In this document: piece after piece, positions 16,297 to 60,683 of the stretch
How positions within the stretch are numbered: the first letter of the stretch is position 1
Layout of the letters: each line of letters starts with the position of its first letter
From: Priapulus caudatus
Lineage: Eukaryota; Priapulida; Priapulimorpha; Priapulimorphida; Priapulidae
NCBI RefSeq assembly: GCF_000485595.1
Contig: NW_014577178.1
Span: 57,669 to 121,668 of the forward strand
Length of the DNA stretch: 64,000 bases
Direction of reading: 5' to 3'
Translations under genes and position numbers: made by a program
Notes under the pieces: generated by a model
What the model saw: only the letters and a program-made list of their open reading frames with translations
Told to the model about the DNA's origin: nothing
Database searches by the model: none

Positions 16297-16305
16297 GATA
16301 ATATC

Positions 16306-16351
16306 AGGCGTGTATAATAATAGAGTGTATAGTCTATTATTATACACTCCT
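16306..16351. mobile_element. 46-bp hairpin insertion element (AGGNGTGTATAA family)
   Basis: Two 19-bp arms, AGGCGTGTATAATAATAGA and TCTATTATTATACACTCCT, pair with one mismatch around an 8-nt loop. The 9-bp sequence gataatatc occurs directly on both sides (16297-16305 and 16352-16360), as a target-site duplication would. It has no coding capacity, so any movement would depend on proteins encoded elsewhere. A longer, nested relative lies at 55684-55810. Confidence 0.7.
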
Positions 16352-16420
16352 GATAATATCAATATTGATAATAACAATAACATGATAAGTCAAGTTCAGG
16401 AAGTGAATGTGTTTTTAATG

Positions 16421-17005: not shown

Positions 17006-17405
17006 ATCCCTTCCATGAAGGGATGTATCGGATCAGGGATATATTCCTGCTATATAATATTATCCCTGTTTCATCCCTGATAAATACCTGTCACATCCCT
17101 GATGAATACCTAGCTGTCATATCCCTGATTTATCCCTAATATGTGGTACACATGACATCCCTGATACATCCCTTCCATAGCATCCCTGAAACATCCCTGA
17201 TGTATATCCCTTCCAGGAAGGGATCTAGGTAATTTACATATTTGGAGCTGCCACATCCCTGATTTATCCCTGTCTATGTATTGGCATACATAGGCAGGGA
17301 TGAATCAGGGAAAAGTATCCCTGCCGCCAGAAGGTATCCTTCCAAGTCAGGTTGGCGCATCCCTGCAAATAACCTGATACATCCCTGCTGTATCCCTGAC
17401 AAAAT
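17006..17405. repeat. Dispersed ATCCCTGAT motif field with three hairpins
   Basis: The core of the upstream minisatellite continues here as many unevenly spaced copies on both strands (ATCCCTGA[TA]...CATCCCT and its complement AGGGAT...). Two near-identical 19-bp hairpins occur exactly 200 bp apart, ATCCCTTCCATGAAGGGAT at 17006-17024 and its ...CCAGG... version at 17206-17224. A longer hairpin with 25-bp arms (two mismatches) and a 6-nt loop spans 17256-17311. Confidence 0.8.
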
Positions 17406-19388: not shown

Positions 19389-19642
19389 CTGCAAGACACC
19401 AGAAAGTCAATGGCAGCAATTAATATAATAATGCAGTAAAATAATATAACACGGTAATCACTGCTCAAACGTCTGACAATCATGACGTACGTGCTTAACA
19501 AAGTATATAGGCCAATCGCGTACAAAATTTATTAATGCATTTAGTTGGCACCCGGCATCATAATTGATAAAAATTACTTGTTTGTTTGTGCGCAAAAGTT
19601 CACTGGATAGTTTTCCAGAACACACATCGTGTTGCATGCTAT

Positions 19643-19679
19643 CAAGAGCGTATAAAGAAGCCTTCTTAATACGCTCTTG
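19643..19679. mobile_element. 37-bp palindromic insertion element (CAAGAGC family), copy 1
   Basis: Arms CAAGAGCGTATAAAGAAG and CCTTCTTAATACGCTCTTG pair with one mismatch and one unpaired central base. The 7-bp direct repeat atgctat flanks it at 19636-19642 and 19680-19686. Ends and inner sequence (GAGC..ATAAAGAAG) are clearly related to the element at 20675-20712. Confidence 0.8.
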
Positions 19680-19686
19680 ATGCTAT

Positions 19687-20600
19687 ATATACGGCCAGTT
19701 TATTACAGAGCAAGTAAGCTAGGGCAGGGGGAACATGGCTGTCATTCTGCATGATACACGCGACTACATACACAGCCATGATAATGGTTATACTAGAGTC
19801 CTGTATTCCGTATATCGCAAGCCACTCAGCGTCGACATATTAACTGTGTAATTGCAAGTCCATGGGGGAGAAGACGGAGTCTGACCTGCACGAGATTTGC
19901 CAATATATTACACAGCTGACAACATCGAATAACATTTTTAAATTGCAGTCGTTTTATTTGCTGGCAGATTACAATAAAACAAATAGTATTCTTTCCGTGA
20001 TTGCGCGCCGTAATCAGAACAAAATCCATTCCATTAAGAAGCCGGATTTGGAAACCAATGTATCGGATGAAACAAAACATGTAAGACGATCTCGACTCAA
20101 TTAGCCGTGCCGGCTTCCTCAACAATTGATTTTCACTGATCTGGCAGCACACACAGCAAGAGCTTGCTGAGATTTTAAACCTTTCAATGGACTCAGCAGC
20201 GAATCCAACTGACTGCCGATGTCGAAGGCTTTCGAACTGCCAGGAACGAGAAAAAAACACCGACCAGGGCTTCGAATCTCACAGTAGCAAATAAGCAGAC
20301 TGTACATTGCGCGTAACGGTTCTCATTGCGCGTGATCGCACGAAATGCGTGTTTACGCATTAAATGTACCTCCTATTACTCCCCCTGCTAAATTCTGTAT
20401 ATGATTGTCTGAAATATTTCCGCTTTGCTATTAGCTCACACGAAAATAGTGAACACGCATCTCTGAAATTTCATTTTCCCCAAGTAGAGGTAGAAGAGGC
20501 TGTGTCCACCAAGGCGTCATGTAGCACGCGTTGTTCACACGCACGTACATTAGTTCGTATAATATGCGACCTATCCAGCCACGTAAGTATGCACATACAC
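19687..20600. other. Intron-like DNA, no gene recognised
   Basis: Overlapping frames on both strands at 19826-20260 show no family resemblance. A stretch near 19890-19850 on the minus strand reads SDSVFSPMDL behind a weak acceptor, but there is no donor after it. Confidence 0.45.
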
Positions 20601-20613
20601 ACACGCACGCACG

Positions 20614-20646
<33 letters not shown>
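20601..20646. repeat. (CACG)n(CA)n microsatellite at left edge of block A1
   Basis: CACG units followed by CA units, the same arrangement as at 32646-32694 before block A2. The two near-identical blocks start to match immediately after this tract. Confidence 0.9.
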
Positions 20647-20651
<5 letters not shown>

Positions 20652-20674
20652 ATAATACTGGAGCAAACTATTAC

Positions 20675-20712
20675 CAAGAGCAGATAAAGAAGGCCTTCTT
20701 TATCTGCTCTTG
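20675..20712. mobile_element. 38-bp perfect palindromic insertion element (CAAGAGC family), with empty site
   Basis: A perfect palindrome of two 19-bp arms (CAAGAGCAGATAAAGAAGG and its complement) without a loop. It is flanked by direct repeats ctattac at 20668-20674 and 20713-20719. The second copy of the block has only one ctattac at 32716-32722 and nothing else missing. The difference is exactly 45 bp, that is 38 plus the 7-bp duplication. This is a filled and an empty site of a tiny mobile element. It encodes nothing, so the mobilising enzyme must be elsewhere. Confidence 0.87.
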
Positions 20713-23419
20713 CTATTACTAATCTGAGTTGATATTTAACTGCATCTGCCAACTGTTACATCTGACACGTTAGGAGATATTAATAAGCCATCAATATGTG
20801 GCAATTTCAGGCGCTTGGCAGGACGTATAACTGCAACCTTATCTTGGAGACAATAAATTCTGCCGCGAGAGCTTGTTTACTGGTCCCCGTAGTGTTGGTT
20901 CTAAGCCGAAATGTGTTAGCACTGTAAGGCAGGCATACAAAGTATCTCATATGAAGGTACTTTTCAAACAAACTGTTTCGCCATATCCCTAAGAAAGCCT
21001 CCAAGCAACAGTATTTGGGAGGTAAAGCTACAACTGCAAACGCAATACACTAGCTATTAACTATTCTGAACAGCAATTCCTGAACACAAACAACAAGGCT
21101 TTGCTAAATCGTGTGGTTTTCATAATAATGAATGTTACTCTGCAATGATTGCGTTCAACTACTATGATAGCAAGAGCTAACAATGAGTAAACTATAAAAA
21201 AAATTACTCCTTATGTAAATCGAGTGTTACTAGTAAGTTACTAGAAAGAACATTGTCACATATTTATAGCACAGAATTTAGAACTATAACTTTATAAAAG
21301 TTAAGTAAAATGGTAAAAATTAAAATGGCCATTTCATTGTAGGAACTACATGCATACTTTGAAGGAACACGACAAACGATGCAACATATATATTATTGTT
21401 TAGGATAACAGATTTAACCAATATTTTTCTCCATAGGCAAAACAGCACGAGTGGTGAAAATGAGGTACGCGATACAAAGAATAAAAATCTACATGTGCAG
21501 CATAGACACTTTCAGTAAGATCCTACAGCTGGCGTTGGCGTCTATAGAAACTTGAGTAACATTTTCCTAACCATGCAGTTATAACCCATATATTACCCTG
21601 TATAAAAATAATTAGGACAGTGATAACAAGCTCAATGGGGCGTTTTTGTACTAGGGAGATGCCGTAAATGACTTTTAAACTACGCTTTGCATTGTCATCT
21701 TCGTTGCATTTCTTTTGTGTAAATGAATGTTTGTTGTGCTTTACATTGTGCCACCCCAATTGAATTATCTGTTTATTTCCTATCCACAGAGACGACTTTA
21801 GGCTTAACATTCACCTGGGGGGGGGGGTGTTCTAAGTTCACTAATGTCTCTCACAAAACCAGCAACAATGATTTCTGCCTGCAGTTTCATCCCCTTGACA
21901 CCCTATACAGGACAGAAAATTAAAAATTCAATGCCAAGAATCTTCTGTTCATTAGCCGAATTATAAAAGCATCGTTAATGGGTCATTGTTTCCCATATGC
22001 AAGACCATAGGCAATTAAATTTTAGCGGGTAGCACGCTTATAGAATTAAATTATGGCTCTATTTCCATATGAATAGGTCGGGGGAAAATGGGTCGTCGAT
22101 CGTTAATAAAATGGCGATTGTAGCTTTTATAAAGGCTTATCAATGCTCGTATGTTTGCGTATAACAAACAATACAAAAACGCATTTTATTATAATAAAAG
22201 CACTACGTTTTAAAGCATATATATATATGCCATATGAATTAATGACAAGACGTTTATCTTACTGTATATTACTATAGTATTTAATCAGGTATTGAAACCA
22301 TAGCATATTAAACCCTAAAACCGCGACCAAGTTTCTAGAATATATAATTAGCTCCTGAAAATTAGCAAGCTCTAATAAAACGCGTGCACACGCGCCGTAC
22401 GGTGGATCAAAAACAGATGAGTTACAAAAATTGACACAGATTTCCCCATTAACATTATATGAATAATTCTGATGAATAGCCGTGAACATTAGAAAACCAT
22501 ATGTGGCAGCCAATATGCTGTGCCCTGCATTAAGAATGCTGTGATCGTATGGTTAGAGACGATGCCTTCTAGCAATTAAACCTTGCACAAAAATAAACCC
22601 AGTAATCACTATAATCACCAAGACAAAAAGAACACCGGTGTGGCCCAGCAGACCATAGCCCTGTATTGCTCTTAGCAAGTAACATACAAAATAGGTTCAT
22701 GACATGACACCACCATACATCAGGGCCACCATACTAGAGAGACAGAAGCGGGTGTTTATTTGCACGATTTTCATCCAACACGGTTCTCTCCTGCTATTAC
22801 TCCCTATAATTAATTCACCACCTTATATACTCAGCTCATCGTATACAATGATCAAGCCGCGTATTCATCAATCTACGCCCATTATCTAGGGCATGAATTA
22901 GACAGTGAGTTAACAGTTAATTTGGTTTCATGAATTCATAACATAGCAACATATGTCCGTGAAAATGCCAGCTAGAATTTGGCTTGTGTAAAAACGGCAT
23001 AGCACGGTAGACATCTGGCTCCCACTGCTCACCAAAAAGCAGTGAGCAACAAAATGAACAATCTCCTCCGGGAGGCAAATAATTACCACTCATTAATAAT
23101 GAAGCCAAATTGATAAATAATAAACTACTTCATTTCCTCTGCAGTACATTTGCACAAAAAGCAACAAAGGTTAAATTTTAAAACAATTTCTCAGGAGACG
23201 CAGACTATGGCCTTCCAATCAAATCCAGTCACAAACATAATTGCAACATTATCTCCGTTTGTCTCACTAGCACGCATATTTTAAAATTCAAATAAACATC
23301 ACAAATGACTCACTAGGAAAATCAGAGCATACAATACATTTATAGTTCCTGATAAACACGGAGCATAACCATGTAATGTTCCTTCTATAGTTAGCAGATG
23401 CACATTGCTGGCATAATCA

Positions 23420-23672
23420 CAGAAATAATACTAAAAGACTATAGAATAAGTTAGACCTATAGAATAGCTATAGAACTACAGAGTAGAATACCATAGATAA
23501 CTATGGAATAGAAATACAGAATAATACTATAGTGTCTCTATGTATTTCTATAGGCACAATGAAAGTAAGACATTGTAATTTGCAACATTGTGGAACATTG
23601 TAAAATGACAAGTAAGACATTGTAACTGGCAACATTGTGAAACATTGTAAAATGACAAGTAAGACATGATAA
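23420..23672. repeat. Short tandem repeats: degenerate CTATAGAATA units and a ~55-bp duplicated unit
   Basis: From 23437 to 23555 there are many imperfect copies of [AC]TATAGAATA. From 23565 to 23672 a unit of about 55 bp (aagtaagacattgtaa...aacattgtaaaatgac) occurs twice with the start of a third. The same structure is in block A2 at 35425-35677. Confidence 0.75.
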
Positions 23673-24148
23673 AGCTGGCCTCATATCCCTTGCTGTTCCC
23701 CTTCTGCGCAGTTATAACAGGTGCGTAAAAATTGAAATATTGTAGACTGCTTTTCTTAACATACACGCACACAGCAATGCACGCACGCTGGGCACGGCAA
23801 AACAGCTAGGGCATCTAAAAAAATTCCATTTAGTCAAACTTAGAACTGTAACTAATAATTTGAAACAAATGGTAGCTGATAAAAGTAGCTTAACAGCTAG
23901 GGCAAGTGCGAGGCAATGAAACCGAAGCCAAACATGCTGTATCATTCTCGCTATGTTTTTGTTCTTGTTGTGAAATTTGTGTAATGCAAGCAAAAAAATG
24001 TGAAAATCCAAGTTCATGAAAATCCCTAAAATAATCCGGTTAAATTTTTAAAATGTTGGGCTGAGAGTGTTCAGGTTTTATGCCAAAACCTCACAATAAA
24101 ACTCCTTTTAACCACATAATAGAAAAAATAAGAGAGCTTCACACTTAC

Positions 24149-24207
24149 CCTTGCATCGTAAGAACTGCTTGTATTGTTTGCAGTCCATGAATCGGACTCG
24201 GGAACAA
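24149..24207 (-). CDS. Internal coding exon of E-protein-like gene, 59 nt (copy in block A1)
   Basis: Minus-strand acceptor gttattgcag and donor gtaagtgtg bound 59 nt. All three frames are open, but only the one that takes two bases to complete a codon and then reads VPESDSWTANNTSSSYDAR leaves phase 0, as required by the exon at 19319-19388. The S-W..N...S-SYD-R pattern matches TCF12 (TSWG.SG.PSPSYDSSR) and TCF4 (GSWGNGGHPSPSRN) at the exon just before the LSP-F exon, and the length is about the same (roughly 20 residues). It expects an upstream exon ending in phase 1, which I could not find in the rest of the window. An identical exon lies 12 kb away at 36154-36212. Confidence 0.68.
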
Positions 24208-25843
24208 CTGCAATAACATAGAAAAATGCCGGCACGTGAGTCACATATATTCAATAACAGAAAATAGCTGGAAAATTCACTGAAACCGTCATGAATTAAT
24301 TCAATATCCATAATAATGTAAATCTGTCATTATAGAAAATGCCAGTTGTCCTTCAAACCCTTTGCCAGTTGATACCGAAATTGGTAATAAGTTCAACTTT
24401 AAAATTTCAGAATTTTAACAAAGATATACATAAATGAAAGCACACACGCGCGCACTCACACACGCACGCACGCATGCACACACATTTTTGTTATAGCTAT
24501 ATACTGCTAAAACAAAATTGTCTGATTATACCCTGCCACAGGAATGCTAAGCTGTCAGAATCAATTCCCAATTTCCTTAAATGTTCAACGCAGAGAACAA
24601 TACTGATGGAGAGCGACCCAGGCAGAAGTACTTATTCCATCAATTCAGCCATTCCAACTGATATGATCCCCTAATGGGGTTATTATCACTGGTAATTCAT
24701 GCAGACAAATTTTTAATTGAATCTGTGGCTGCGAGCTCTGCGCGTAACTCGGCTGGATCAATCTCGCATTATCATAGCCTTTATCTGTCCAGTAGGCAAA
24801 CTCCAGTTTTCTTCGGAAAAGTTTATCCCTTTTCCTATTACGGCTCACAGGAGTGGAGAGACATGCATCTCGGCAAAAATCATTGCTCACGTAAAGCTAC
24901 CCTCGCGCCTATCCTGCCTTCACACTCACGGAGTGTTAGAGTATTTATAAGCTCAATCAACAAGATCGCTGTTGACACAAATCTTACATTCTACGTCATT
25001 CCTCGCAATTCCCCTACCAGAAGCCAGACGCTTCCTTAAAATATTTCACCACATTTATTATATTAAAATGCCATTATATGCACACACGCACACACACGAG
25101 CGCGCGCACGCACACATGCACATGCATACACATATATTTGTTATGACCTCGAGGTATCTCTTAAGGGATAAAACCTGCATATATAAGTTTATAATAACAT
25201 GCCACATTGCAGCATGTTGTACTACAAATGATTACCTATATAATCACACTAAGTTAAGAGTTAATGAAATATGGTATGTCTAGAAGAGGACATTAATTCT
25301 ACGTACAGGTACGACACGAGTTATAATTATATCTGTCTGAGATCTGTAATTAAGCCTGAGAACATGGCTATAGCTGGTAAGTGCTGCTAGAGCATTAATG
25401 TGTTAATTCTCATTAGGTTAAGCTTGGTCGAAAGGGTTTTGCTACATCTTGGGTTTTAGTTTTTCATACAACTAATTCTATATATTATTTATACAATAAA
25501 TAATAAATTAATTATTTTATTTTATTTGTATGAATAACGAAAATCATACACACAGGTAAAATAGCATCGTACCTAAACAAATATACACCCGTTTTCTAAA
25601 CAGGGTCATGTAGCAGTGTAATAAAATCAGGTCTAAGGTTCCTAAAACATAGATAGTTCTCTTATTATAATACATAAAATGTAGAAAGAAAAGGCGTAAA
25701 TGACCTGCAGTGCAAGGTACCTGATAAGGAAACCACCCTTATCAAGTTCAATTAGATCACAGATTCCAGAAGATCTGACACAGGAACAATGCATGGTGAC
25801 ATCGAAAACTGAGACATACCCTAACATTTTTGCAGGGCGCCCT

Positions 25844-25938
25844 AAACTGACCAGTTGTTTTAAAACGCATTTCTCCTATTGCAGCACATGTACAGTGATT
25901 GAACTCACGCGAGTATAGTACTATATATATATATATAC
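25844..25938. repeat. Block B', copy 1 (95 bp)
   Basis: Starts aaactgaccagttg and ends in a TA tract. An identical segment is at 47976-48069, where it continues into single-copy DNA. Here it passes through the TA tract into block C. Confidence 0.8.
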
Positions 25939-31300: not shown

Positions 31301-32649
31301 TGCACGCGCGCGCGCAGAGACCCACGCACGCACGAACGCACGCACACACACGTATATATATCAGTCATTCACAGCCTAACACTTAGCATTTTGCTTCAGC
31401 TATCCAACTTCGCTAACCGGTCCTTTAAACACAGTCAACACATGTAGATGTTCCATGCTTGCACTTCTCAATTCGGCATAAAAAGGAGAATGACTTTAGT
31501 CTTTTGAATTGAAACCGGGAGCCTTTTGTGATGTAAATGATGTTAGAAACTAGGATTCATCATCCTTGAGCAGCTTATTCTTCAATAAAAGCCTTCAACT
31601 GGTATTTTTATATTTTCATGCTAATTCTCTCTTTCAGTTTCATATATAACGACCACGTACGCGTCCCTCAAAATACTGTACGAAATAAACAGTATAGCTT
31701 AAAGACGTCCAGGTGTAAGATATGTTGTTTTGCATAGAACGCTAGTGCTTGCAGCAAGAAGTACTAATTGAAGCATTAAGAGGTCAGATAACTACTAGCT
31801 ATTCTCTGCTCAAAATGTACTTAAATCAGCACATACACGTTTGGTAATACATAATAAACTATACTGACTTTACACGCAGCATTTGACTTTGGAATCATGC
31901 ACCTATGCGCCATACACGCATGCACGCAGGCACAACAGATGAGTGCAGGCTCCTCGCCTATTTAACTGAACAGATATGACACGTTATTAGCAGCAATGCA
32001 ATAAATCCGAACTTCTTTGGTAATGACTTGCAATAAATTTTAACATCAATAGATAGGGTAATTTTATAAATTCTTTGCATCAAGGCTCTTTCCTCTCAAC
32101 CAATTTTCGGAACCGCTATTAGGTAGCTATTTATATGGCAAATAACATCACCACACTTTACGACGATTAGCCGACTTTCGTAGACTAAAATGTGCAAATT
32201 AATGACACCGCAATCACAAATCCAAATTGGGAAAGCTGAAATTGTATTACATCTCAAATGATGCGCCTTTCAAATTTTACTATTTCTGTTTCAATGCGCT
32301 TTTGCTAGTCAGAAATAAATTATAGCATGATTACCACATAGCGGTTCGACACTTGCACAATTTACACCTCGTGAGACTTGTTAGCACTTGCCACACACAC
32401 ACACTGGTTCACAATCAGCAGCCCTCGCACTTCACACACGGCCATATTGATTTCCGACGCTTGGTATTCTATTTACAGGGATTTGTCAGAAATGCCATGA
32501 TCTGCCTTTCAGTATAATACACTGAATTTAGTAATGGCGGCCGATAGAGTCGTGGAACCATGGTTTTTCGTGCAGTTACCATTCGTATATGTATACGATC
32601 CAATGACAAGCTGTTATATAATTGTATTATTTGTATATATGTGTACACA

Positions 32650-32694
<45 letters not shown>
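31233..32694. repeat. Block E, copy E2, flanked by microsatellites
   Basis: Starts with a (CACATA)n tract (31239-31297) and ends with a (CACG)n(CA)n tract (32646-32694). The unique part in between recurs at 40196-41815 with many single-base insertions. No gene recognised. Confidence 0.8.
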
Positions 32695-32699
<5 letters not shown>

Positions 32700-35600
32700 A
32701 TAATACTGGAGCAAACTATTACTAATCTGAGTTGATATTTAACTGCATCTGCCAACTGTTACATCTGACACGTTAGGAGATATTAATAAGCCATCAATAT
32801 GTGGCAATTTCAGGCGCTTGGCAGGACGTATAACTGCAACCTTATCTTGGAGACAATAAATTCTGCCGCGAGAGCTTGTTTACTGGTCCCCGTAGTGTTG
32901 GTTCTAAGCCGAAATGTGTTAGCACTGTAAGGCAGGCATACAAAGTATCTCATATGAAGGTACTTTTCAAACAAACTGTTTCGCCATATCCCTAAGAAAG
33001 CCTCCAAGCAACAGTATTTGGGAGGTAAAGCTACAACTGCAAACGCAATACACTAGCTATTAACTATTCTGAACAGCAATTCCTGAACACAAACAACAAG
33101 GCTTTGCTAAATCGTGTGGTTTTCATAATAATGAATGTTACTCTGCAATGATTGCGTTCAACTACTATGATAGCAAGAGCTAACAATGAGTAAACTATAA
33201 AAAAAATTACTCCTTATGTAAATCGAGTGTTACTAGTAAGTTACTAGAAAGAACATTGTCACATATTTATAGCACAGAATTTAGAACTATAACTTTATAA
33301 AAGTTAAGTAAAATGGTAAAAATTAAAATGGCCATTTCATTGTAGGAACTACATGCATACTTTGAAGGAACACGACAAACGATGCAACATATATATTATT
33401 GTTTAGGATAACAGATTTAACCAATATTTTTCTCCATAGGCAAAACAGCACGAGTGGTGAAAATGAGGTACGCGATACAAAGAATAAAAATCTACATGTG
33501 CAGCATAGACACTTTCAGTAAGATCCTACAGCTGGCGTTGGCGTCTATAGAAACTTGAGTAACATTTTCCTAACCATGCAGTTATAACCCATATATTACC
33601 CTGTATAAAAATAATTAGGACAGTGATAACAAGCTCAATGGGGCGTTTTTGTACTAGGGAGATGCCGTAAATGACTTTTAAACTACGCTTTGCATTGTCA
33701 TCTTCGTTGCATTTCTTTTGTGTAAATGAATGTTTGTTGTGCTTTACATTGTGCCACCCCAATTGAATTATCTGTTTATTTCCTATCCACAGAGACGACT
33801 TTAGGCTTAACATTCACCTGGGGGGGGGGGTGTTCTAAGTTCACTAATGTCTCTCACAAAACCAGCAACAATGATTTCTGCCTGCAGTTTCATCCCCTTG
33901 ACACCCTATACAGGACAGAAAATTAAAAATTCAATGCCAAGAATCTTCTGTTCATTAGCCGAATTATAAAAGCATCGTTAATGGGTCATTGTTTCCCATA
34001 TGCAAGACCATAGGCAATTAAATTTTAGCGGGTAGCACGCTTATAGAATTAAATTATGGCTCTATTTCCATATGAATAGGTCGGGGGAAAATGGGTCGTC
34101 GATCGTTAATAAAATGGCGATTGTAGCTTTTATAAAGGCTTATCAATGCTCGTATGTTTGCGTATAACAAACAATACAAAAACGCATTTTATTATAATAA
34201 AAGCACTACGTTTTAAAGCATATATATATATATGCCATATGAATTAATGACAAGACGTTTATCTTACTGTATATTACTATAGTATTTAATCAGGTATTGA
34301 AACCATAGCATATTAAACCCTAAAACCGCGACCAAGTTTCTAGAATATATAATTAGCTCCTGAAAATTAGCAAGCTCTAATAAAACGCGTGCACACGCGC
34401 CGTACGGTGGATCAAAAACAGATGAGTTACAAAAATTGACACAGATTTCCCCATTAACATTATATGAATAATTCTGATGAATAGCCGTGAACATTAGAAA
34501 ACCATATGTGGCAGCCAATATGCTGTGCCCTGCATTAAGAATGCTGTGATCGTATGGTTAGAGACGATGCCTTCTAGCAATTAAACCTTGCACAAAAATA
34601 AACCCAGTAATCACTATAATCACCAAGACAAAAAGAACACCGGTGTGGCCCAGCAGACCATAGCCCTGTATTGCTCTTAGCAAGTAACATACAAAATAGG
34701 TTCATGACATGACACCACCATACATCAGGGCCACCATACTAGAGAGACAGAAGCGGGTGTTTATTTGCACGATTTTCATCCAACACGGTTCTCTCCTGCT
34801 ATTACTCCCTATAATTAATTCACCACCTTATATACTCAGCTCATCGTATACAATGATCAAGCCGCGTATTCATCAATCTACGCCCATTATCTAGGGCATG
34901 AATTAGACAGTGAGTTAACAGTTAATTTGGTTTCATGAATTCATAACATAGCAACATATGTCCGTGAAAATGCCAGCTAGAATTTGGCTTGTGTAAAAAC
35001 GGCATAGCACGGTAGACATCTGGCTCCCACTGCTCACCAAAAAGCAGTGAGCAACAAAATGAACAATCTCCTCCGGGAGGCAAATAATTACCACTCATTA
35101 ATAATGAAGCCAAATTGATAAATAATAAACTACTTCATTTCCTCTGCAGTACATTTGCACAAAAAGCAACAAAGGTTAAATTTTAAAACAATTTCTCAGG
35201 AGACGCAGACTATGGCCTTCCAATCAAATCCAGTCACAAACATAATTGCAACATTATCTCCGTTTGTCTCACTAGCACGCATATTTTAAAATTCAAATAA
35301 ACATCACAAATGACTCACTAGGAAAATCAGAGCATACAATACATTTATAGTTCCTGATAAACACGGAGCATAACCATGTAATGTTCCTTCTATAGTTAGC
35401 AGATGCACATTGCTGGCATAATCACAGAAATAATACTAAAAGACTATAGAATAAGTTAGACCTATAGAATAGCTATAGAACTACAGAGTAGAATACCATA
35501 GATAACTATGGAATAGAAATACAGAATAATACTATAGTGTCTCTATGTATTTCTATAGGCACAATGAAAGTAAGACATTGTAATTTGCAACATTGTGGAA

Positions 35601-37848
35601 CATTGTAAAATGACAAGTAAGACATTGTAACTGGCAACATTGTGAAACATTGTAAAATGACAAGTAAGACATGATAAAGCTGGCCTCATATCCCTTGCTG
35701 TTCCCCTTCTGCGCAGTTATAACAGGTGCGTAAAAATTGAAATATTGTAGACTGCTTTTCTTAACATACACGCACACAGCAATGCACGCACGCTGGGCAC
35801 GGCAAAACAGCTAGGGCATCTAAAAAAATTCCATTTAGTCAAACTTAGAACTGTAACTAATAATTTGAAACAAATGGTAGCTGATAAAAGTAGCTTAACA
35901 GCTAGGGCAAGTGCGAGGCAATGAAACCGAAGCCAAACATGCTGTATCATTCTCGCTATGTTTTTGTTCTTGTTGTGAAATTTGTGTAATGCAAGCAAAA
36001 AAATGTGAAAATCCAAGTTCATGAAAATCCCTAAAATAATCCGGTTAAATTTTTAAAATGTTGGGCTGAGAGTGTTCAGGTTTTATGCCAAAACCTCACA
36101 ATAAAACTCCTTTTAACCACATAATAGAAAAAATAAGAGAGCTTCACACTTACCCTTGCATCGTAAGAACTGCTTGTATTGTTTGCAGTCCATGAATCGG
36201 ACTCGGGAACAACTGCAATAACATAGAAAAATGCCGGCACGTGAGTCACATATATTCAATAACAGAAAATAGCTGGAAAATTCACTGAAACCGTCATGAA
36301 TTAATTCAATATCCATAATAATGTAAATCTGTCATTATAGAAAATGCCAGTTGTCCTTCAAACCCTTTGCCAGTTGATACCGAAATTGGTAATAAGTTCA
36401 ACTTTAAAATTTCAGAATTTTAACAAAGATATACATAAATGAAAGCACACACGCGCGCACTCACACACGCACGCACGCATGCACACACATTTTTGTTATA
36501 GCTATATACTGCTAAAACAAAATTGTCTGATTATACCCTGCCACAGGAATGCTAAGCTGTCAGAATCAATTCCCAATTTCCTTAAATGTTCAACGCAGAG
36601 AACAATACTGATGGAGAGCGACCCAGGCAGAAGTACTTATTCCATCAATTCAGCCATTCCAACTGATATGATCCCCTAATGGGGTTATTATCACTGGTAA
36701 TTCATGCAGACAAATTTTTAATTGAATCTGTGGCTGCGAGCTCTGCGCGTAACTCGGCTGGATCAATCTCGCATTATCATAGCCTTTATCTGTCCAGTAG
36801 GCAAACTCCAGTTTTCTTCGGAAAAGTTTATCCCTTTTCCTATTACGGCTCACAGGAGTGGAGAGACATGCATCTCGGCAAAAATCATTGCTCACGTAAA
36901 GCTACCCTCGCGCCTATCCTGCCTTCACACTCACGGAGTGTTAGAGTATTTATAAGCTCAATCAACAAGATCGCTGTTGACACAAATCTTACATTCTACG
37001 TCATTCCTCGCAATTCCCCTACCAGAAGCCAGACGCTTCCTTAAAATATTTCACCACATTTATTATATTAAAATGCCATTATATGCACACACGCACACAC
37101 ACGAGCGCGCGCACGCACACATGCACATGCATACACATATATTTGTTATGACCTCGAGGTATCTCTTAAGGGATAAAACCTGCATATATAAGTTTATAAT
37201 AACATGCCACATTGCAGCATGTTGTACTACAAATGATTACCTATATAATCACACTAAGTTAAGAGTTAATGAAATATGGTATGTCTAGAAGAGGACATTA
37301 ATTCTACGTACAGGTACGACACGAGTTATAATTATATCTGTCTGAGATCTGTAATTAAGCCTGAGAACATGGCTATAGCTGGTAAGTGCTGCTAGAGCAT
37401 TAATGTGTTAATTCTCATTAGGTTAAGCTTGGTCGAAAGGGTTTTGCTACATCTTGGGTTTTAGTTTTTCATACAACTAATTCTATATATTATTTATACA
37501 ATAAATAATAAATTAATTATTTTATTTTATTTGTATGAATAACGAAAATCATACACACAGGTAAAATAGCATCGTACCTAAACAAATATACACCCGTTTT
37601 CTAAACAGGGTCATGTAGCAGTGTAATAAAATCAGGTCTAAGGTTCCTAAAACATAGATAGTTCTCTTATTATAATACATAAAATGTAGAAAGAAAAGGC
37701 GTAAATGACCTGCAGTGCAAGGTACCTGATAAGGAAACCACCCTTATCAAGTTCAATTAGATCACAGATTCCAGAAGATCTGACACAGGAACAATGCATG
37801 GTGACATCGAAAACTGAGACATACCCTAACATTTTTGCAGGGCGCCCT
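32695..37848. repeat. Duplicated block A, copy A2 (5.15 kb)
   Basis: Counterpart of 20647-25843. It lacks the 45-bp palindromic insertion and has one extra TA near 34220. At its right end it continues from GGGCGCCCT into the GGGCG-type minisatellite. Confidence 0.85.
36154..36212 (-). CDS. Second, identical copy of the 59-nt E-protein-like exon (block A2)
   Basis: Same splice sites and sequence as 24149-24207. Because 59 is not a multiple of three, including both copies in one mRNA would enter the next exon out of frame and reach TGA within about ten codons. If the duplication is real, the two exons must therefore be mutually exclusive or one is skipped. If it is an assembly duplicate, only one exists. 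Confidence 0.55.
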
Positions 37849-38720
37849 TCTCTCTGGAGGGCGTTTGCAGGGCGTTAGAAGGGCGCCCTGCAAACGCCCT
37901 CCATAAGTGCTACGCCCTGCAAACGCCCTCCTGAGACTTAGATATTTTAGCGTATGCCCTGCAAACGCCCTTCTGAAACTTAGATATTTTAGCGTATGCC
38001 CTGCAAACGCCCTTCTGAAACTTAGATATTTTAGGGCAGTATGGCCGCTGGGCAAACGCGGCTCATTGCTGATAACTCGATATTTTAGACGAATTGTAGA
38101 TGCAGCGAAAGATTCCAGAAAGATTACTGAACAGGCAGACAATGCATAGGTGACAGTCGACAACTAGCACATCCGCTAACATTTTTGCCAGGGCGCCCTT
38201 CTCTCTGAGGGCGTTTGAGGGGCCGTTATGAAGGGCGTCCCTGGCAAACGCCGCTCCTGAGACTTAGATATATTTAGCGTATAGCCTGCAAACGCCCTTC
38301 TGAAACTTAGATATTTTAGCGTATGCCCTGCAAACGCCCTTCTGAAACTCAGATATTTTAGCGAATTAGATCACAGATTCCAGAAGATCTGACACAGGAA
38401 CAATGCATGGTGAACATCGAAAAACTGAGACCATCGCTAACATTGTTTGCAGGGCGCCCTTCTCTCATGGAGGGCGTTTTGCAGGCGTTAGCAAGGCGCG
38501 CCTTGCAAACTCCCTCCTAGAGACTAGATATTTTTAGCGTATGCCCTCAAACGCCCGCTTCTTGAAACTTAGATATTTTAGCGTCATGCGCCTGGCAAAG
38601 CGCCCTTCTGAAACTTAGATATTTTTAGGCGAATTAGCGATCAAGATTCCGAGAGAGCAATGGCTGACACCAAGGAACAATTGCACTGGTGTACAACATC
38701 GAAAACTGAGACAATATGCA
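37849..38720. repeat. GC-rich minisatellite with 42-bp units and ~290-bp higher-order repeat
   Basis: The 42-bp unit CTGAAACTTAGATATTTTAG + CGTATGCCCTGCAAACGCCCTT is repeated in tandem. Groups of units alternate with a segment that resembles the end of block A (gattccagaagatctgacac ... aaaactgagac), seen at about 37765, 38110, 38369 and 38645. A 19-bp-arm hairpin built on GGAGGGCGTTTGCAGGGCG spans 37856-37902. Later copies are increasingly interrupted by single-base insertions. Confidence 0.8.
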
Positions 38721-47631: not shown

Positions 47632-47975
47632 CGGAAAACACTTACTGATCAGCGGGCCTTTTTACTAACCGCTTTCAGACCGCCTCATCGGTGCAGAAGT
47701 CTATCGTTTCACGCAAGGCCTTATTTGTTTCCATGCAATATTAATGAATGACAGCATGTATTACTCAACTAAATCTAAAGAGCAATTCAATTGGATACTA
47801 CTCAAGCGGAAATTGTGAGATTCCATTCTTCAGCGATGCCAACTCGGAGTTCACATTAATTGTTCATGAGATTTTTTAAATTTTAAAATAAAAGTAGTTA
47901 TTTTATTTTAATGAAGTGTTTTACAAGAAATGCATGGTTATTTGATCCTATTGCCTAATAGGTAAGAAGTTAAAT

Positions 47976-48069
47976 AAACTGACCAGTTGTTTTAAAACGC
48001 ATTTCTCCTATTGCAGCACATGTACAGTGATTGAACTCACGCGAGTATAGTACTATATATATATATACA
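47976..48069. repeat. Block B', copy 2, continuing into single-copy DNA
   Basis: Identical to 25844-25938 up to the TA tract, after which it continues cagacgtacggg. This is probably the original position of the segment, since its right neighbour is clean single-copy sequence. Confidence 0.8.
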
Positions 48070-49944: not shown

Positions 49945-50125
49945 ACAACCGATCTTGTCATCACAAACTATTTAATCTATAAAGCTATATTTTGTGAACA
50001 ATCATATATATAATTAGCTATATATGTATTTTGTGAACAATTGAATATAATTATATATACATATTTAATTGTTCACAAAATATAGCTTTATAGATTGAAT
50101 AGTTTGTGATGACAAGATCAGTTGT
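49945..50125. mobile_element. Long palindrome / foldback MITE (~181 bp)
   Basis: Arms of about 57 bp (left 49945-50002, right 50068-50125) pair with very few mismatches. Their outer parts are ACAACCGATCTTGTCATCAC and its complement. The central loop is AT-rich and itself contains TTTTGTGAACAAT half-repeats. This fits a foldback MITE, but no clear target duplication is visible. Confidence 0.7.
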
Positions 50126-58910: not shown

Positions 58911-59750
58911 TAGGGGTGCACCGGATCCAACTTTTTAAGTTCAGGCCGGAACCAGAACCAGCCGGAACTTGAAAAAAATTTCTGCCGGAACTACCTGGCT
59001 GGAACCGGAACTTAAGCTGGGAATAAACTTGACAGTTTTAATTGGCCCAGTATTGCGCAAACTCACTCGGCCTGAACGAAATATTGGCAGGCACATCACT
59101 CAGGCGAGTAGGACAATGCTCATTGTTCTACATGTTCTCATTATATGTCACATGTTCTCATCTTCTCATGTTCTCATGTCTCATGTTCTCATTATATACA
59201 TGTTCTCATTGTCTACATGTTCACATTCTACATTGTTCTCAATGCTACAAAGTTCTAATTACAGGATGGTTGTTAGGTGTATGATCGAATCATCTGCTTA
59301 CAGTGCATAATTCTGGCATCTTATTCGCGAGCGAATTGTGTGGCAAAACCTGCATGTTGCAGTATCCCTGGTTTTGGTCGATTATTTTCAAGTTCAACTA
59401 ACAAACATATGCCATTCCTGTGGCTCTAAGAGCATTTTATTTTAAAGGAAAATCTCGTGAATCACCTAACATCAGTTAGGTTCGATCAGTTCAGTTAGTT
59501 AGCCGATGTTCAAGTGGCAAACGTTTTCGAGGCATAATAGTGTGAAGTTGTTAAAACACTATATTTTCAGCAAGTTGACTCTATATATTGACATAACTAC
59601 ATTCCGTGACTGATCTTTTGATCTTGATGAAGCTTGTAGCAGAAATGAAATTATGAAAAATTCCGGTTCCGGCCAACCTTTTGTGAAGGGTTCCGGCCGA
59701 AACCGGAAAAATTGGGGATCCGGCCGGATCCAAGTTCCTGTGCATCCCTA
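58911..59750. mobile_element. hAT-type non-autonomous transposon, 840 bp, complete
   Basis: The inverted ends TAGGGGTGCAC and GTGCATCCCTA are flanked by an exact 8-bp direct repeat ataaatat (58903-58910 and 59751-59758), the hallmark of hAT insertions. Subterminal regions are rich in GGAACC/CCGGAA words on both sides, which pair with each other. No transposase frame survives. The longest frame (58969-59310) only reflects the internal repeat. Confidence 0.82.
59119..59240. repeat. ACATGTTCTCAT tandem array inside the hAT element
   Basis: About ten imperfect copies of (AC)ATGTTCTCAT with short TATAT or TCT spacers. They give the Cys/Ser/His-rich frames seen here. Confidence 0.8.
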
Positions 59751-60161: not shown

Positions 60162-60247
60162 TAGGCCCTACGCGTCTATGTGAGAGACCCATGCGTCTGT
60201 GGGTGCATGCATATAAGTATGAGTTGCACGCGTGCATACATGTATAT

Positions 60248-60277
60248 CAAGAGCTAATAAGGTATTATTAGCTCTTG
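60248..60277. mobile_element. 30-bp palindromic insertion element (CAAGAGC family), copy 3
   Basis: Perfect 13-bp arms CAAGAGCTAATAA/TTATTAGCTCTTG around GGTA. It is flanked by the exact 8-bp direct repeat atgtatat (60240-60247 and 60278-60285). The ends match those of the elements at 19643 and 20675, while the centre is different and shorter. Confidence 0.8.
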
Positions 60278-60683
60278 ATGTATATATATACATGTGCGAT
60301 GTATGGAAGCATGCGCACAGATAATAGAAGTGTATTATCTCGTGTTTCCATTGCTTCCTACTTGACCTCTCCCACACAATCCGACAGCAAAACTCACCAA
60401 CCAGGCTAGGCGAATAGATTATAAATAAACAATAATTTGCCAGAAAAAAACATCAACAGAATATTCAGACCAATATTCACGCTCGCATATGTAATACATT
60501 CCCGTTTCAATACTACAACGTTTGCCTATAACATTACAAAAATTGTCTAATGTATGCATATATCTATAATATCAAGAAATATTCATTGGTGCAAACACAC
60601 ACACACAATAAAAAATCAGTTCATTATTAAAGTCTTTAATTTTGCAACTACGTGGACTATATATATATTCGGTGGAAGCAATA

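Follow-up and report, generated by a model that had tools for sequence, protein, structure and literature searches.

Loopless palindromes between short target duplications as probable excision footprints of a P-superfamily-like transposon

The window analyzed here, a 64-kb stretch of genomic DNA (G000:C118:57669-121668), contains two nearly identical blocks, A1 and A2, of which A1 carries a 38-bp perfect palindrome without a loop (20675-20712, CAAGAGCAGATAAAGAAGG followed directly by CCTTCTTTATCTGCTCTTG). The locus raises the question whether so short a palindrome is itself mobile or is what remained after a larger element had left. The sequence-only reading of this DNA had taken the first view, describing the two blocks as the filled and empty sites of a 38-bp mobile element, possibly the substrate of a hairpin-processing enzyme. 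Comparison of the blocks confirmed the underlying difference. BLAST found no mismatches across 5249 aligned columns, and the internal differences in a MAFFT realignment are one 45-bp indel, made up of the palindrome and a second ctattac, and two 2-bp indels (CA in a microsatellite and AT at 22217); the single substitution in this realignment, at 20601, falls in a CA/CG microsatellite at the A1 edge. The ctattac duplication in A1 is exactly 7 bp long, and A2 has a single copy (Table 1). We conclude that the palindrome is very probably a footprint left by the excision of a P-superfamily-like transposon whose tails measure 18-19 nt, and not a 38-bp element that moves by itself. This conclusion rests on the filled and empty sites, the thousands of similar palindromes in the genome, the 7-bp duplications around most of those checked, the diversity of their centers, the 18-19-nt boundary of their arms, the longer spans with the same ends, and the presence of P-type transposases in the genome.

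Table 1. Features of the A1/A2 pair and the other putative footprints (window positions)
Feature	Position	Strand	Remark
Target duplication, left copy	20668-20674	.	ctattac
Left 19-nt arm	20675-20693	+	CAAGAGCAGATAAAGAAGG; putative kept end (3' tail) of a departed element
Right 19-nt arm	20694-20712	-	CAAGAGCAGATAAAGAAGG on the opposite strand; center, between GG and CC, read as an end-joining junction
Target duplication, right copy	20713-20719	.	ctattac
Empty site in A2	32716-32722	.	single ctattac
Block A1 (filled)	20599-25843	+	
Block A2 (empty)	32645-37848	+	
Second footprint	19636-19686	.	7-bp duplications atgctat
Third footprint	60240-60285	.	8-bp duplications atgtatat
Fourth footprint, CAGG-ended	16298-16359	.	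7-bp duplications ataatat

The proposed mechanism would start from a cut-and-paste transposon with ends CAAGAGCAGATAAAGAAGG... that inserts at ctattac and duplicates its 7 bp. On excision, the transposase would make staggered cuts, one at the element border and one on the opposite strand 18-19 nt further in, so that each chromosome end would keep an 18-19-nt single-stranded 3' tail of the inverted end. Since both tails would have the same sequence, full pairing would be impossible, and they would be sealed by microhomology- or Pol-theta-type end joining, in some cases with the addition of filler templated by neighboring sequence. The predicted product is target, tail, reversed tail and target, that is, a loopless palindrome. 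The perfect 38-bp copy is read as a case where both tails were kept and joined either bluntly between GG and CC, or via GC or GGCC if the tails were one or two bases longer.

In the window, the ends CAAGAGC and GCTCTTG separated by 10-40 nt occur three times, and not once in any of 40 order-3 Markov versions of it, which excludes a chance origin. A genome-wide search for further copies, suggested in the sequence-only reading, was made in the assembly of 385,217,808 bases with the reversed pattern as control; exact 7-base ends were required, and all counts are lower bounds. For the CAAGAGC class it returned at least 540 matches to CAAGAGCN{16,24}GCTCTTG (control 10), at least 795 to CAAGAGCN{25,50}GCTCTTG (control 14) and at least 58 to CAAGAGCN{100,130}GCTCTTG (control 20), and for a CAGGAGT class at least 2141 to CAGGAGTN{10,40}ACTCCTG (control 6). 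Such scars thus appear to number thousands in the genome. After subtraction of the controls, the density of CAAGAGC-class matches per bp of spacer is about 59 in the 16-24 range, 30 in the 25-50 range and 1.2 in the 100-130 range, a few loci being counted in both CAAGAGC spacer ranges. At G000:C4:1030354, C4:1297540 and C12:822537, which matched in both ranges, a scar is followed by, or filled with, another end copy. A palindrome scan of viral contigs gave only two loose, unrelated matches, and 88 stretches there carry one arm.

Besides the palindrome of A1, the window contains three further footprints of the same kind. One, detected with a three-mismatch pattern, holds a 37-bp palindrome (19643-19679; arms of 19 and 18, one arm mismatch). 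Another, from a palindrome scan, holds a 30-bp palindrome (60248-60277), which can be read as two copies of the end CAAGAGCTAATAATACC joined directly, the left one contributing 13 nt and the right one 17 nt. The CAGG-ended palindrome (16305-16352) is 48 bp long and consists of two 20-nt arms and an 8-nt center, GTGTATAG, 7 nt of which (GTGTATA) recur in the left arm; this spacer, initially taken as a loop, is now read as filler. An additional scan, blind to the end sequences, covered the window and about 121 kb of readable sampled genome and sought palindromic inserts 24-60 bp long between duplications of 6-9 bp. It yielded 15 rows against none in six Markov controls, and 11 of these belong to the CAAG/CAGG-ended class (among them two rows that repeat another in shifted form and one, C1:89052, with a mutation in one end). 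The remaining four comprise a 55-bp CATAG palindrome (two rows), a CCGG palindrome and a GC microsatellite. The three CAAGAGC scars of the 64-kb window compare with about 0.22 expected from 540 + 795 copies per 385 Mb; this excess could be due to the choice of window, masked sequence or local hopping.

Examination of the palindrome centers involved the first 50 listed of the 540 shorter copies and the first 49 listed of the 795 longer ones; arm classes were set after inspection of the first list, and the two arms of one palindrome are non-independent. Among the first 50 listed, 44 are distinct sequences, five are perfect palindromes and five more are perfect except for the central base. The arms are constant and the centers vary by small deletions, blunt joins and filler: an AAGAAGG-type arm on both sides is associated with 10 distinct centers in 17 copies and a TAATAA-type arm on both sides with 13 in 16, and many longer copies have both arms intact with differing short sequences between them. 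In the 31 AAGAAGG-type arms (CAAGAGCNNATWAAGAAGG) of the 49 longer copies, positions 16-19 are occupied by A (31), A (30), G (29) and G (27), and position 20 of the same arms by A in 5, C in 7, T in 16 and G in 3. Similarly, 15 of the 16 TAATAATACC-type arms (CAAGAGCTAATAATACCT) of longer copies have T at position 18, and position 19 is A in 8, T in 5 and C in 3. The 50 shorter copies show a less sharp edge, as one arm runs straight into the other: of 41 arms, 25 carry G at position 19 and 26 carry C at position 20. From these base counts the break would lie 18 or 19 nt inside each end, and the constant arms, variable centers and 18-19-nt boundary together make the centers resemble a repaired double-strand break. 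Two expected marks of a P footprint, a fixed long end boundary and end-joining diversity at the center, were therefore found. Templating of the filler is modest, which counts against the excision reading: the mean longest match is 7.4 versus 4.9 in shuffles (20 fillers from 99 palindromes), and the excess is carried by five fillers, of which three contain an additional copy of an end, in whole or in part. At C2:283869 the filler consists of three TAATAATACC units, repeating the arm.

The flanks were examined for 44 of the first 50 listed of the 540 shorter CAAGAGC copies. An exact 7-bp duplication is present in 25 and one with at most one mismatch in 32; five more copies, two of them in AT repeats, have 8 bp with at most one mismatch, giving 37 of 44 with a 7- or 8-bp duplication at this tolerance. 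Exact 8-bp duplications occur in just four copies (two in AT repeats) and exact 9-bp ones in none. The sequence-only reading was right in regarding the A1 palindrome as a product of transposition with a true target duplication, and in anticipating flanking repeats of 7-8 bp at further copies. Six of the 44 fit none of these lengths and one other fits 6 bp only, which weighs against excision; among the six, L117 resembles a chance match. For the CAGGAGT class the check was confined to the few copies lying in sampled DNA, and all three listed there (C1:114631, 191869 and 310301) have an exact 7-bp duplication. A hAT element, with its 8-bp duplication, was rejected on the counts of exact 7- and 8-bp duplications. 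The consensus of the 25 exact duplications is roughly ATANTAT. They agree with GTANTAC at 3.08 of the 6 positions, and shuffling of their letters gives 1.88 with a maximum of 2.68; in 15 duplications collected by hand earlier, two of them with one mismatch, the agreement was 3.47 against a shuffle maximum of 3.0. The palindromic target preference like GTANTAC expected of the P superfamily is therefore present.

Excision footprints of P elements were described in Drosophila by Chan, Yu and McVey (2010). According to the available part of this study (PMC2895639), P excision leaves 17-nt non-complementary 3' overhangs in the chromosome, and Rad51-deficient flies yielded the target, CATGATGAAATAAC(AT)GTTATTTCATCATG and the target again in 14 isolates, with a 32-bp sister in five. 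By our own tally of its Table 1, 19 of 66 isolates consist of a perfect 30- or 32-bp palindrome between two targets; the same 66 divide into 27 with short microhomology, 20 with long microhomology, one blunt join and 18 insertions (PMC2895639). In the 20 long-microhomology isolates most of both tails was lost and the product is non-palindromic, which argues against the excision reading. The likeness to our palindromes, as far as the study is available (PMC2895639), extends to the target duplication, the kept inverted ends, blunt joins, short templated fillers, and perfect palindromes that arise from a self-complementary 2-nt microhomology. The difference is that the Drosophila tails are 17 nt long with 8-bp duplications, whereas here they are 18-19 nt with duplications mostly of 7 bp, a boundary that likewise speaks against a P origin; furthermore, the Drosophila footprints were induced in the laboratory, and those here number thousands in a sequenced genome.

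In the available sections of a review (PMC7776569), the Drosophila P transposase is described as cutting one strand 17 bp within the element, which produces 17-nt 3' extensions, and this stagger is named among the features that set P elements apart from other characterized cut-and-paste transposons. Galileo, a member of the P superfamily, has 7- or 8-bp duplications with the consensus GTATTAC, according to the available part of its description (PMC4168063), in which we found no palindromic scars. It resembles our palindromes in having 7-bp and sometimes 8-bp duplications and a palindromic target, GTANTAC, close to the consensus here; it belongs to another host and other elements, and the comparison covered duplication and target. 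The 7-8 bp duplications and the Galileo-like target of our palindromes agree with the P superfamily. Zebrafish Pdre2/THAP9, in the part of its description available (PMC10983969), is similar as a non-insect P-type transposase with internally deleted copies and ends that begin with CA, and different in its 13-bp ends (CATACCTGTCAAC) and 8-bp duplications.

Genes for such transposases are present in this genome, where PF12017 has 14 matches. An 827-aa open frame of P/THAP9 type (L118:837-3317, minus strand) carries PF12017, PF21787, PF21788, PF21789 and THAP9_C; it has 482 relatives among 7988 scored candidates, with 67-69% identity to the two best database relatives, and the named ones among the 120 listed are from sea spider, coral, limpet, tick and hagfish. 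At three of the 14 loci, read over about 5 kb each, no P transposase was seen between CARGAGY ends; these regions contain isolated CARGAGY heptamers and no end pair flanked by a duplication, which counts against the P reading. Alignment of L119 with L120 gave no boundaries of P-transposase elements, and no P-transposase relative was found in viral contigs. There is good support for a departed element that behaves in the manner of a P element; its identity as a P element we infer. Probably a P-type transposase made the cuts, and the scars presumably arose by excision.

The existence of complete CAAGAGC-ended elements was a prediction made beforehand. The exact 19-base end CAAGAGCGTATAAAGAAGG occurs 314 times on one strand of the genome and 288 times on the other, with none in the control. 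Among its first 100 listed places we paired neighboring inward-facing ends and obtained short spans of 38, 38, 39, 40, 40, 48, 53, 66 and 70 bp and longer ones of 283, 654, 690, 707, 718, 730, 731 and 742 bp, with one of 15.8 kb. In the same 100, outward-facing neighbors within 20 kb form three spans (3.3, 9.5 and 13.0 kb) and same-strand neighbors four spans of 1.6-7.2 kb, none being shorter than 1.6 kb. The short spans look like scars and the eight end pairs of 283-742 bp, known by position alone, look like elements; those at G000:C24:330815-331545 and C17:514410-515099 are two examples from the 654-742-bp group. The longer spans may be MITE-like, and a number of the palindromes with long spacers could be true elements of small size. 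Two elements from sampled DNA have ends related to the scar ends. At G000:C1:151361-152195, an 835-bp element with ends CAAGAGTAGATAATAACG and the 7-bp duplication atattat carries 318-bp inverted repeats that are 97% identical, with another CAAGAGT lying 18 bp in from its ends. A 1246-bp element (L110:4841-6086) has ends CAAGAGCCCATT mirrored over 12 bases and the duplication atacaat, and its left end CAAGAGCCCATTAACCCC matches the arms of scar L127, CAAGAGCGCATTAACCCC, at 17 of 18 bases. Inspection by eye showed that it contains a hAT-like element with TAGTGCTGTGC ends and what appears to be an 8-bp duplication, atatggat. The 64-kb window was also searched for a long parent element, and none was found; a 2119-bp span was rejected because its right end, CTCTCCTG, does not mirror the left.

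MITEs are non-coding and have inverted ends and target duplications. The palindromes share these traits and differ in having no body and mostly no common center; a MITE with a common body was rejected, as 44 of the 50 listed copies are distinct and their centers differ. We consider it very improbable that the palindromes of 24-60 bp are ultra-short MITEs, themselves cut and pasted by a transposase acting in trans. Target duplications, thousands of copies and the filled/empty pair would agree with such elements, and against them stand the mostly unshared centers, the arms that stop at 18-19 nt, and the bimodal spacing of paired exact ends in the 100 listed arms (38-70 versus 283-742 bp). Moreover, a 38-bp duplex leaves little room for pairing two ends in a transposase complex. 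The mobile 38-bp element and the substrate of a hairpin-processing enzyme proposed in the sequence-only reading are most likely wrong: centers that vary in the way of end-joining junctions, and the presence of longer spans bounded by these 19-bp ends, point to a remnant left by a larger element. Footprints of a non-P transposase that evolved a long staggered cut independently are a more serious, though still unlikely, alternative. The tail of 18-19 instead of 17 nt and the three loci without a P transposase between CARGAGY ends agree with it; the Galileo-like duplications and target in the available part of PMC4168063, the P transposases of this genome, and the distinctiveness of the 17-nt stagger in the available sections of PMC7776569 do not. 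More broadly, either a non-P transposase or a novel P lineage whose tails are 18-19 nt long might have cut this genome until recently, its offset readable from thousands of natural scars, a proposal that we offer tentatively and hold to be rather less than an even chance. If true, the host end-joining repertoire of blunt joins, microhomology and templated filler would be recorded genome-wide without experiment.

The A1/A2 pair itself admits several histories. Slippage readily deletes hairpins that lie between short direct repeats, and a precise loss in A2 by slippage between two ctattac copies would reproduce its single target; we regard this as improbable, as it leaves the origin of this and the other palindromes unexplained, and it bears only on the direction of one pair. 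Since A1 and A2 are substitution-free over 5.2 kb, one of them could be a duplicated assembly haplotype, and a library or assembly artefact was accordingly considered; as an account of the palindromes it is scarcely credible, because sequences and duplications differ at most sites checked, and for the class as a whole the 44 distinct sequences among 50 listed, with their duplications, refute it. For the pair, a duplicated haplotype, gene conversion or slippage loss from A2 may each apply. Should the two blocks have arisen by genuine duplication, then A2 with its one ctattac represents the unoccupied form, and insertion into A1 and excision from it took place within a time that left no substitutions in 5.2 kb outside the edge microsatellite; the pair would then represent one insertion-excision cycle, too brief for substitutions to accumulate. 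The left breakpoint of the pair falls in a CA microsatellite. At the right end of A1, an adjoining 93-bp sequence (25843-25935) recurs with 100% identity at 47975-48067 and may mark a recent rearrangement or an assembly join. Around the two blocks, positions 25900-47000 form a mosaic of partly repeated blocks (25.9-29.8, 29.8-32.7 and 40.2-46.9 kb) with 74-93% identity.

A short palindrome between small direct repeats can easily pass for one of the smallest mobile elements. If such palindromes are instead scars, the cutting offset of a transposon and the break-repair habits of its host can be read from sequence alone, and past excisions can be counted, those of lost elements included. In literature titles and the openings of abstracts we found no genome-wide account of such scars outside laboratory P-element assays, which is not proof of absence.

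The window as a whole has a eukaryotic non-coding look and is rich in microsatellites; scans of it detected no Rfam families or tRNAs, and Pfam comparison of 10 of its 62 listed open reading frames gave a single match, below its cut-off. Three inverted repeats with arms of 20-26 bp (17256-17311, 37855-37903 and 50027-50082) have no directly flanking duplication. The CCGG-ended palindrome at 59656-59713, 44 bp long (CCGGTTCCGGCC...GGCCGAAACCGG) with aaaaatt on both flanks, is possibly another element type. In sampled DNA, the 55-bp palindrome at L110:9896-9966 (G000:C1:309896-309966), CATAGAAATAG...CTATTTCTATG with the exact 8-bp duplication GTTCCCAC, may be a scar from a second P-like element with different ends. 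Finally, nested copies were noticed by eye at two places: a CAAGAGC element of about 114 bp lies inside a 43-bp CAGGAGT palindrome at G000:C1:193819-193982, and a 45-bp CAGG palindrome lies inside a 193-bp one at C1:188263-188455.
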